From positions 124,001 to 188,000 of the forward strand of contig JAEKKX010000012.1 of NCBI GenBank assembly GCA_019510125.1: a stretch of 64,000 bases of DNA. Reading direction: 5' to 3'. Shown one piece after another: positions 61,071-64,000 of the stretch. Position 1 is the stretch's first letter, and each line of letters starts with the position of its first letter. The DNA comes from Lysobacterales bacterium (GTDB taxonomy: Bacteria; Pseudomonadota; Gammaproteobacteria; Xanthomonadales; Xanthomonadaceae). The notes below the pieces were generated by a model. The model had not been told where the DNA came from and did not search any database. It saw only the letters and a program-made list of their open reading frames with translations. The translations under genes were made by a program, and so were the position numbers.

Positions 61071-61167
61071 TTCGCTGTCGCGGAGCCGGTTTCCGCGAAG
61101 GCGAGGCCGTTGCGGCGGCTCCGCCGCAATGCGGCGGCGCGCAGGCTTTCCGCAGGCGCTCCGCCCG

Positions 61168-61237
61168 GTAGAGCGGCCTTCAGGCCGCTGCGCTTGGCAT
61201 TGCCGCGAGCAGAACAGCGGCCTGAAGGCCGCTCTAC
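61168..61237. repeat. GTAG-type REP pair (REPIN), copy 3
   Basis: GTAGAGCGGCCTTCAGGCCG at the left and CGGCCTGAAGGCCGCTCTAC at the right, both identical to the arms of copy 2, with a spacer of about 30 bases. It lies between the convergent cardiolipin synthase and GNAT genes. Confidence 0.92.
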
Positions 61238-61251
61238 CGCAAGCAGGCGCG

Positions 61252-61764: not shown

Positions 61765-62076
61765 GGACGGGCTCGGCGATGGACGGCGGCACAGTATCCG
61801 CGAAGCGCGGTCATGGCGGCGACGACGTGCCGCAAAAGCGAGAGCGTCCGGCGTGCCGCCGTGGCGTGAACGCTGAACGCTTCCGCGCACGGGATCCTCG
61901 CGCGGCCACTTTTCCGATGAATGGGACCGCCGTCGCTTCCGCCGGGCGGGCGAGCGTGTTATCACCGCATCGATGCCCGGTTCCGGGCATCGCGCCGCCG
62001 CAAGGGCGACGCCCCGTGTGCAGTCGAACGCCGCCATCGCGCGTGCGTTCCCCACGACCACAAGGAGAAACATGCC
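61765..62076. other. Gap upstream of the precursor-like gene
   Basis: About 310 bp without a gene, between the divergent GNAT gene and the 47-residue peptide gene. It should carry both promoters. A weak TGTTAT at 61957-61962 is the only AT-rich hexamer; no -35 was recognised. AAGGAG at 62062-62067 is the ribosome site of the peptide gene. Confidence 0.5.
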
Positions 62077-62220
62077 ATGAAGAGCCGCGACACGAAGTCC
62101 AAGACCTCGCAGACCAAGACCGCCAACCGCCTCGACGCCGTCCTCGGCGCGCTCGACAAGAAGGCGCCCGGCAGCACCGCCGCCCGCGGAAGCTGCACCC
62201 GCTTCATCTACTGCATCTGA
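62077..62220 (+). CDS. Lanthipeptide-like precursor peptide (putative)
   Basis: A 47-residue peptide with a strong ribosome site (AAGGAG, 9 nt before ATG 62077). The N-terminal leader is hydrophilic and Lys/Thr/Ser-rich (MKSRDTKSKTSQTKTANR), then an amphipathic helix-like segment (LDAVLGALDKKAPG) as found in leader peptides recognised by modification enzymes. The C-terminal core has Ser33, Thr34, Ser39, Thr41 with Cys40 and Cys46, ending SCTRFIYCI. This is the set needed for one or two (methyl)lanthionine rings. The LanM-like gene begins 108 bp downstream in the same direction and frame. The classical GG leader end is absent. The assignment rests mainly on the neighbour. Confidence 0.72.
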   Translation: MKSRDTKSKTSQTKTANRLDAVLGALDKKAPGSTAARGSCTRFIYCI

Positions 62221-62222
62221 TT

Positions 62223-62263
62223 CGCCACCGGCGAGGCCCTGCGGCCCCCCCGTCGCGGTGGCG
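62223..62263 (+). other. Hairpin between precursor and LanM-like gene
   Basis: CGCCACCG (62223-62230) and CGGTGGCG (62256-62263) are perfectly complementary, with a 25-base loop. Such hairpins often limit read-through from precursor to enzyme genes; there is no T tract. It may act as a partial attenuator or 3' stabiliser. Confidence 0.45.
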
Positions 62264-62328
62264 GCGGGCGGGCCGTCGAGCCGGCGCGCGGTCACGCCGC
62301 CGCGCGGGAGACGCCAGGACGCGGAGGC

Positions 62329-64000
62329 ATGCACGGACGCCGGAAATCCCGTAGGCCGCGGCCCCCCGCAGGCCATCCGCCACCGCTGTGCACGCTCGCG
62401 CCGGGCCCGGTGTCGCCCCGGTTGCCGGCGGCGGTGCGACGCATCGCGCGTGCGATCGCGCGCGGCGGCGCGACCGGCCTGCTGCCGCCGCTGGTCGCGC
62501 TGCAGCCGGGTCCCGATGGCGGCACGTTCGCGGCGCCCCGCGGCGACCTGTGCGGCGCGGACGACGCCCGTGCGCTGCTCGCGCGCTGTTCGACGCCGGC
62601 GTTCGCGCCGTTCTGCGCGCTGCTCGCCGATCTCGATGCCTGGCGAACGGCGCAGGCGTCGCGTTTCGCCGGGGCGCTCGCGCCGCGGCTGCTCACGCTC
62701 GACCGCGGCGGCGTCTACGGCGACCTGGTGCGCGAGGCGTTCGTGCGCTGCGCCGGCGCGCATGCGGTCCACGACAACGCCGCGTATCTCGCCCGGCGTC
62801 GGCGCGCCTTCTGTGCGGCGATGGAGCGCTTCCTGCTGCGATTGCAGCGCGACCTGCAAGCCGGTCGCCTGCGCGCACTCGGCGCCCGCGGTCGCGCGAT
62901 CGCGCTGGACGCGCACGGCGACGAGACCCACAACGGCTTCGAGCGGGTGCTGCGCGTCAGCTTCCGCGGCGGCGTGGCGCTGGCGTACAAGGCGCGACCG
63001 GCCGATGGCGAGCGCCTGCTGCTGCGCGCGGACGGGCTGTTCGATGCGCTGCAGCGGCTGCCGCCCGCGGCCGGACCTTTCCGCCTGCCGTCGCTGCCGT
63101 CGGTCGATGGCGCCGACGGCGATTGCCTGTGGTGCGAATGGATCGCCGCGGCGCCGACCGTGGCCACCCTGCGGCGCATCGACGGCTGGCGCCTGCGCGG
63201 CCCGCGTTTCCCGCTGCGCGAGGCGCGGCGCTTCTGGCACGACGCCGGCGCGCTGGCGGCGACCTGTTTCGGCTTCGGCATCGCCGATCTGTACGCCGGC
63301 AACCTGCGCGTCGGCGTGCGCCGCGGCGACGATGCGCCGATGCCGTACCCGGTCGATCCGGAAGTATGCTTCGCGCCGTCGCCGGGCCTGCGCCACACCG
63401 GCCTGGTCGGCGATGCCGCCGACAGCGGCAACCATCATGTCGGCTTCGAGCGGCTGCCGCGTCTGTGCAGCGCCGACACGCCGCTGGCCGGGTTCGTGCG
63501 CGACGCCGCGGGTCGCGCGCAGTTGCGGCGCCTGACCGTGCCGCTGGCGCGCGCGGAGACCGCCAACGTCGTCGGCGACACGCGCGGCGGGATCGGCTAC
63601 GCGCCGCATCTCGCGCCGTTCCTGCGCGGGATGTTCGACGCCTGGGCGACGCTGTGCCTGCAACGGCCGGCGATCGACGCGTGGCTGCGCCGCCACGCGC
63701 GCCGCGCCCGTACCCGCGTGCTGCGCCGTTCGAGCGAGGTCTATGCCGCGGCGATGGATGCGGTCGCGCTCGGCGCCGATCCGGCGTTCCCCGCGTTCGA
63801 TGCCGCAGAACGCGCGCAGATGCGGCACGGCGACCTGCCTGCGTTCTATCGCCGATCGGGCGGCGGCCCGCTGCGCTGGATCGCGATCGACCGCCACGGC
63901 GCGCCGCACGGACGCGTCCTGCGCTGCGACGACCCGGCGCCGCTGTCGCGCTGCGGCCCGGCGACGCCGCCGGAATTCGTCGATCTCGCGATCGCCCTGC
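62329..64000 (+). CDS. Class II lanthipeptide synthetase (LanM-like), 3' end outside window
   Basis: The frame is open from 62221 to the window end; ATG 62329 with GGAGG just before is the best start, giving 557 visible residues. It matches the DUF4135 dehydratase domain of LanM, which phosphorylates and eliminates Ser/Thr. Conserved elements are HGDETHNGFERV (from His196), YKARP (Lys221), CLWCEWIA, GALAATCFGFGIADLYAGN (320-325), PVDPEVCF (Asp343, Glu345), and GDLPAFY (501-507, the GDIPxF motif). The usual DxHxxN is DLYAGN, with Tyr322 replacing His. The C-terminal LanC cyclase domain would lie beyond the window. The start is ambiguous; GTG 62410 is an alternative. Confidence 0.85.
   Translation, partial: MHGRRKSRRPRPPAGHPPPLCTLAPGPVSPRLPAAVRRIARAIARGGATGLLPPLVALQPGPDGGTFAAPRGDLCGADDARALLARCSTPAFAPFCALLADLDAWRTAQASRFAGALAPRLLTLDRGGVYGDLVREAFVRCAGAHAVHDNAAYLARRRRAFCAAMERFLLRLQRDLQAGRLRALGARGRAIALDAHGDETHNGFERVLRVSFRGGVALAYKARPADGERLLLRADGLFDALQRLPPAAGPFRLPSLPSVDGADGDCLWCEWIAAAPTVATLRRIDGWRLRGPRFPLREARRFWHDAGALAATCFGFGIADLYAGNLRVGVRRGDDAPMPYPVDPEVCFAPSPGLRHTGLVGDAADSGNHHVGFERLPRLCSADTPLAGFVRDAAGRAQLRRLTVPLARAETANVVGDTRGGIGYAPHLAPFLRGMFDAWATLCLQRPAIDAWLRRHARRARTRVLRRSSEVYAAAMDAVALGADPAFPAFDAAERAQMRHGDLPAFYRRSGGGPLRWIAIDRHGAPHGRVLRCDDPAPLSRCGPATPPEFVDLAIAL

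Follow-up and report, generated by a model that had tools for sequence, protein, structure and literature searches.

In class II lanthipeptide synthetases of the LanM type (CylM, LicM2, LtnM1/LtnM2), a DUF4135 dehydratase fold is combined with a LanC domain, and the precursor gene lies just upstream. The locus described here shares the fold, the residues that align with it and the upstream precursor. However, it has DUF6624 in the place of LanC, no adjoining LanT, a pair of JmjC-type proteins and a peptide core of the form [S/T]C-x(3-5)-YC. Mining tools that search for DUF4135 may classify clusters of this kind as class II lanthipeptides. A different fusion is found in the LanMbC enzymes of the dehydrazoles, where DUF4135 is joined to a non-zinc-LanC domain; as the relevant passages of PMC10676384 describe it, CcaM of carnazolamide has a class III cyclase-like domain and acts on azole peptides together with a YcaO protein, whereas the enzyme studied here carries DUF6624 and no YcaO was found among the cassette genes or five scanned neighbours. 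The part of PMC13097080 that deals with DUF6624 notes it in the vicinity of graspetide clusters and suggests that it may be a class of biosynthetic enzymes yet to be discovered; in the present cassette the same domain is instead fused to the dehydratase. DUF4135 and DUF6624 were not found named together in the literature searched.

The oxygenase pair also has described counterparts. Members of the ROX family (YcfD, NO66, MINA53) resemble it in the fold of gene 3, in the profile match and HxD...H motif of gene 4, and in a winged-helix-like tail. The pair differs from them in joining an intact and an HxD-less member within a peptide operon, a context that does not indicate a ribosomal protein as substrate. 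Tailoring of a RiPP precursor by a JmjC enzyme is known from BipG/BpmG of biphenomycin (PMC12707348, PMC12257519). BipG, in contrast, has ornithine as its target and works alongside MNIO and radical SAM enzymes, and the passages on it mention neither DUF4135 nor DUF6624. Finally, according to a passage of PMC12636437 that cites Xia et al. 2025, JACS (doi 10.1021/jacs.5c07332), an alpha-ketoglutarate enzyme has for the first time been reported to link a Cys to a Tyr in a RiPP; the present system would share with it a 2-oxoglutarate enzyme and a Cys-Tyr crosslink.

The window, a stretch of 64,000 nucleotides from a Lysobacterales bacterium, comes from a genome assembly of 4.08 Mb that is 97.7% complete. 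Position 64000 is the window edge only, and the operon genes reach 67147; they were followed on the continuing stretch L002, in which a position equals the window position minus 61500. The features are as follows.

62062..62067, + strand: ribosome-binding site AAGGAG, 9 nt ahead of the precursor ATG (sequence read)
62077..62220, + strand: precursor gene, 47 aa, MKSRDTKSKTSQTKTANRLDAVLGALDKKAPGSTAARGSCTRFIYCI (sequence read)
62329..64731, + strand, extended window numbering, in-window part to 64000 (L002:829-3231): enzyme gene, 800 aa
Enzyme residues about 31-585: LanM dehydratase domain (DUF4135)
Enzyme residues about 571-618: small beta domain
Enzyme residues 630-783, C-terminal, past the window edge: DUF6624 (Pfam)
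64728-65879, past the window (L002:3228-4379): gene 3, 383 aa, JmjC/ribosomal-oxygenase-fold protein without HxD, predicted partner
65876-67147, past the window (L002:4376-5647): gene 4, 423 aa, JmjC oxygenase-like, H153-x-D155...H214

The starts of genes 3 and 4 each overlap the preceding stop. This is a widely shared RiPP cassette that partly resembles class II lanthipeptide systems and lacks the cyclase that defines them. It is best called a variant RiPP system made of a LanM-type dehydratase, DUF6624 and a JmjC pair, whose mature product is predicted to be dehydrated, and likely oxidatively cross-linked, at the Ser/Thr-Cys...Tyr-Cys tail. The sequence-only reading of this DNA had placed a short precursor gene with a strong ribosome site ahead of a LanM-like gene on the same strand, and both were borne out at the coordinates above. 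Its assignment to a class II lanthipeptide locus held in part: a RiPP-type precursor is followed by a class II-type dehydratase and the two are conserved jointly, but the enzyme is not a LanM, its C-terminal half being DUF6624.

Relatives were collected by a profile scan of genome contigs with the enzyme alignment, which gave 51 loci and, with L002, 52 examined; L036, L038 and L077 are contigs of genomes G009, G078 and G097, so the locus and genome sets overlap. The cassette was found in actinomycetes, including streptomycetes, in Lysobacteraceae and in one Myxococcus. All 52 loci have gene 3, and 50 have gene 4, the remaining two (L063 and L080) ending at a contig edge. Among 395 Lysobacteraceae genomes the enzyme occurred in 14, each with a precursor on the same strand as the enzyme. 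For the genus of the window the figure was 2 of 11 genomes, a patchiness that fits gene transfer or loss.

The precursor has a leader-like block, LDAVLGALDKKAP, and the C-terminus RGSCTRFIYCI, with the core end S39-C40-T-R-F-I-Y45-C46-I. In agreement with the earlier view of the small peptide as the enzyme's partner, a precursor lies beside the enzyme homologue in 51 of the 52 loci (61 precursors in total); the contig of the 52nd, L085, begins within the enzyme gene. All precursors found end in [S/T]C-x(3-5)-YC, of which Tyr and Cys were built into the search pattern, and the spacing from the first Cys to Tyr is 3 in 39 precursors, 4 in 19 and 5 in 3. Of the 6888 ORFs in the examined loci that are 25 aa or longer, only 58 carried the strict core motif; 51 of these lie no more than 2.6 kb upstream of an enzyme match and the other seven run into the enzyme's first bases, leaving none away from the cassette among the 6888. 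The motif did not appear in 50 letter shuffles of the upstream regions. With the motif confined to the cassette, the shuffles empty and 51 of 52 loci paired, the association of precursor and enzyme goes beyond chance.

The core residues constant among relatives are Ser39 (as Ser or Thr), Cys40, Tyr45 and Cys46, and those at Ser33, Thr34 and Thr41 are variable. Rings from Ser33 or Thr34 to Cys40 and from Thr41 to Cys46, as first predicted for this peptide, were rejected because those Ser/Thr vary. Several loci hold more than one precursor: ten of Lysobacter type (L077, L086, L092, L093, L095-L098, L100 and L101) have two, whose tails are of the SCSRFIYCV type and the TCxRxYC type, and three are present in some Luteimonas loci. 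The two different tail types of the Lysobacter-type loci suggest a two-peptide product.

The enzyme reads GDETHN, YKAR, GIADLYAGN, DPE and GDLPAFY, and its in-window part matched PF13575 (DUF4135) at 38.1 bits against a cut-off of 29. Foldseek matches to the PDB at E < 0.001 were CylM, the best, and LicM2 only. By profile the enzyme matches LtnM1/LtnM2, and E199-T-H201, K221, D320...N325, D343-x-E345, R463 and S469 align to LanM residues. These aligned residues are kept in all 47 DUF4135 members, position 469 being T in 37 and S in 10. H201, K221, D320, N325, D343, R463 and S/T469 are presumably the kinase and elimination residues. Their retention throughout argues against a DUF4135 half that only phosphorylates the peptide or serves as a peptide-binding scaffold, with no dehydration. 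The replacement of the His of LanM's DxHxxN at position 322 (by G, I, Y or others) and the change of the DTH Asp to Glu in 47 of 47 members would speak for such a loss, which we nevertheless consider highly improbable.

Above cut-off, Pfam recognises nothing but DUF4135 and DUF6624 in the enzyme. A canonical LanM was thus rejected, with DUF6624 at 630-783 and no LanC in the whole genome. DUF6624 is fused to the enzyme in 50 of 52 loci by profile coverage (46 of the 48 rows scanned with Pfam), forms a separate ORF in Myxococcus locus L067 (PF20329, E 2.7e-18) and was not seen in L079. The near-constant fusion, together with the domain's own ORF inside the Myxococcus cassette, makes DUF6624 part of the pathway. 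It is an uncharacterised domain, and a cyclase role for it in this enzyme is a guess.

No PF05147 match for LanC was found anywhere in the window's genome. The LanC domain and LanT transporter anticipated beyond 64000 did not appear: DUF6624 stands in place of the former, the cassette encodes neither a transporter nor a protease, and no transporter was found in the five scanned neighbours. Upstream these encode SDR, PLD-like and GNAT proteins; on the downstream side they encode a PAS histidine kinase and a sigma-54 regulator. With no LanC domain, and no transporter among the scanned genes, the classical class II lanthipeptide reading fails.

Among the related loci, for which the search for LanC covered the stretches around them, 18 have a stand-alone LanC gene after gene 4 (for instance L055, PF05147 E 1.6e-44). 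In L085 a LanC starts just before the contig end (E 2.4e-7 with a broader LanC model). All 18 LanC loci have four-Cys cores, that is, two extra Cys, of the type SPTNSGSGTACG[T/S]CxxxYCC or near it; the sole four-Cys locus without LanC, L063, is cut off by the contig end inside gene 3. The stretches around the 31 loci with two-Cys precursors (41 in all) yielded no LanC, even with the broader model and a motif check, and at least 1500 nt past gene 4 was covered in 29 of the 31, L049 and L080 ending too early. A quick tree was built from 47 enzymes. Its LanC members, a sample of 6 of the 18, are set apart from all others by one branch with full support, which amounts to one state change in a count that leaves out the P rows (labelled no-LanC without known context). 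The midpoint root served for drawing only, and any root outside the LanC group implies an ancestral cassette without LanC. As the 18 loci with a full LanC gene all have extra-Cys cores, the DUF4135-DUF6624 enzyme together with the JmjC pair would act on the shared [S/T]C...YC tail; this conserved element seems to need no LanC. Spanning phyla, the four-gene cassette offers a natural experiment in its members with LanC and extra Cys.

The same contrast bears on an ordinary lanthipeptide, in which DUF4135 would dehydrate Ser39 and other Ser/Thr, the thioethers would close spontaneously or through DUF6624, and the JmjC pair would only decorate the product. Conserved dehydratase residues, two core Cys and the separate LanC of some actinomycete members are what such a product would have. 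Most members, however, have no adjoining LanC, a [S/T] adjacent to a Cys is not expected to form a normal ring with that Cys, and thioethers alone leave unexplained the Tyr before the last Cys in every precursor, a constancy partly due to the presence of Tyr in the search pattern. We regard this account as unlikely. The cassette differs from class II systems in that the cyclase is missing, an uncharacterised domain takes its place and an oxygenase pair is found as regularly as the dehydratase.

All 31 gene 4 members matched PF08007 (JmjC_2) at E <= 0.01, the copy in the window's genome scoring under the curated cut-offs (JmjC_2 17.9 vs 22 bits, Cupin_8 25.5 vs 27.4). Its iron triad, H153, D155 and H214, is kept in 31 of 31 members, and its best solved relatives by profile are the YcfD L16 arginine hydroxylases (E 2.5e-5). 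Gene 3 of the window's genome has no Pfam match, and 6 of the 31 gene 3 members touch Cupin_2. Over its full length gene 3 is paralogous to gene 4 (hhalign E 3.2e-44), and the model of its orthologue in L036 (pLDDT 81.4) has a fold that matches NO66/YcfD. None of the 31 gene 3 members has the Asp of HxD, and 12 of them keep the third His of the triad. At its C-terminal end the model has four strands and then three helices. The passage on JmjC proteins in a recent RRE survey (PMC12710340) describes RRE-like folds linked to JmjC domains, and bacterial JmjC relatives in RiPP-like contexts. Given that precedent and the strand-helix end of the model, it is reasonable to infer that gene 3 may bind the leader.

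For the chemistry of the tail, Arg is usually the target of YcfD relatives. Of the 41 two-Cys cores, 30 have an Arg between C and Y, the window's precursor (Arg42) among them, so that Arg hydroxylation is possible in the window's genome; of the 19 four-Cys cores, 1 has it. A YcfD/BipG-like gene 4 might accordingly hydroxylate Arg42 or another side chain after dehydration of Ser39, the Cys pair forming a disulfide or a lanthionine. The L16 arginine hydroxylases among its relatives agree with this, as does the hydroxylation of ornithine by the RiPP JmjC enzyme BipG in the relevant passage of PMC12707348. Arg is nevertheless absent from 11 of 41 two-Cys and 18 of 19 four-Cys cores, yet the gene 4 triad is retained throughout. 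Arg hydroxylation therefore cannot be what gene 4 does in all members, and Tyr and Cys are likelier universal targets. We consider the hydroxylation account possible but somewhat improbable.

Dehydration of Ser39 and a Cys40-Tyr45 bridge are the most economical explanation of the constant residues together with the constant dehydratase and JmjC pair. We hold in balance, with roughly equal confidence for and against, a LanC-less RiPP cassette in which the LanM-like enzyme dehydrates Ser39 and the JmjC enzyme with its HxD-less twin oxidatively joins Cys40 to Tyr45. In such a pathway the leader block [L/F]Dx[V/L][I/L]GxLE would be the part gripped by the enzymes. DUF4135 would phosphorylate the Ser/Thr of the [S/T]C pair and then eliminate water, and genes 3 and 4, as a ROX-type heterodimer, would use O2 and 2-oxoglutarate to form the C-x(3-5)-Y macrocycle. 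Cys46 may then add to the dehydro residue, in which case DUF6624 would replace LanC or hold the peptide in position, or it may remain free. Proteins encoded elsewhere would remove the leader and export the product. The Cys-Tyr link in the window's peptide is predicted from the conserved residues and the precedent of Xia et al. Whether that work concerns the same family stands at an even chance, given the matching residues and its citation in the JmjC passage of PMC12710340. If it does, the novelty falls to a new Lysobacteraceae member with DUF6624 still unexplained.

A bolder proposal, which we put forward as doubtful, is a fused bicycle made without LanC. In it DUF6624 would be a new cyclase or cyclisation chaperone that closes a Ser39-Cys46 (methyl)lanthionine around the Cys40-Tyr45 bridge laid by the active/HxD-less JmjC heterodimer, LanC having been added later, in one actinomycete clade, for extra rings. 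The cassette makes the role of DUF6624 in RiPP pathways, and LanC-free ring formation, directly testable.

Some individual loci depart from the common layout. In Myxococcus dinghuensis (L067, 4508-9860) the order is DUF6624, gene 3, gene 4, precursor and DUF4135, a naturally split enzyme. One strain of Streptomyces otsuchiensis has two cassettes on two contigs (L079 and L068); L079, whose enzyme comes without DUF6624, holds an additional gene 3-like copy, and its core contains three Cys (GTCSSHYCCIAAV). The surroundings of the cassette differ as well: in G009, the nearest relative by genome search, it adjoins, as read by eye, an acetyl-CoA synthetase-like gene and a LuxR-type response-regulator-like stretch (L033, 2995-10716), vs the histidine kinase and sigma-54 regulator in the window's genome. 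Upstream of the cassette in the window, between the PLD-like and GNAT genes, lies a perfect 25-bp inverted repeat (61166-61239; CGGTAGAGCGGCCTTCAGGCCGCTG and its complement, 24 nt apart) that resembles a REP-type element or a bidirectional terminator.
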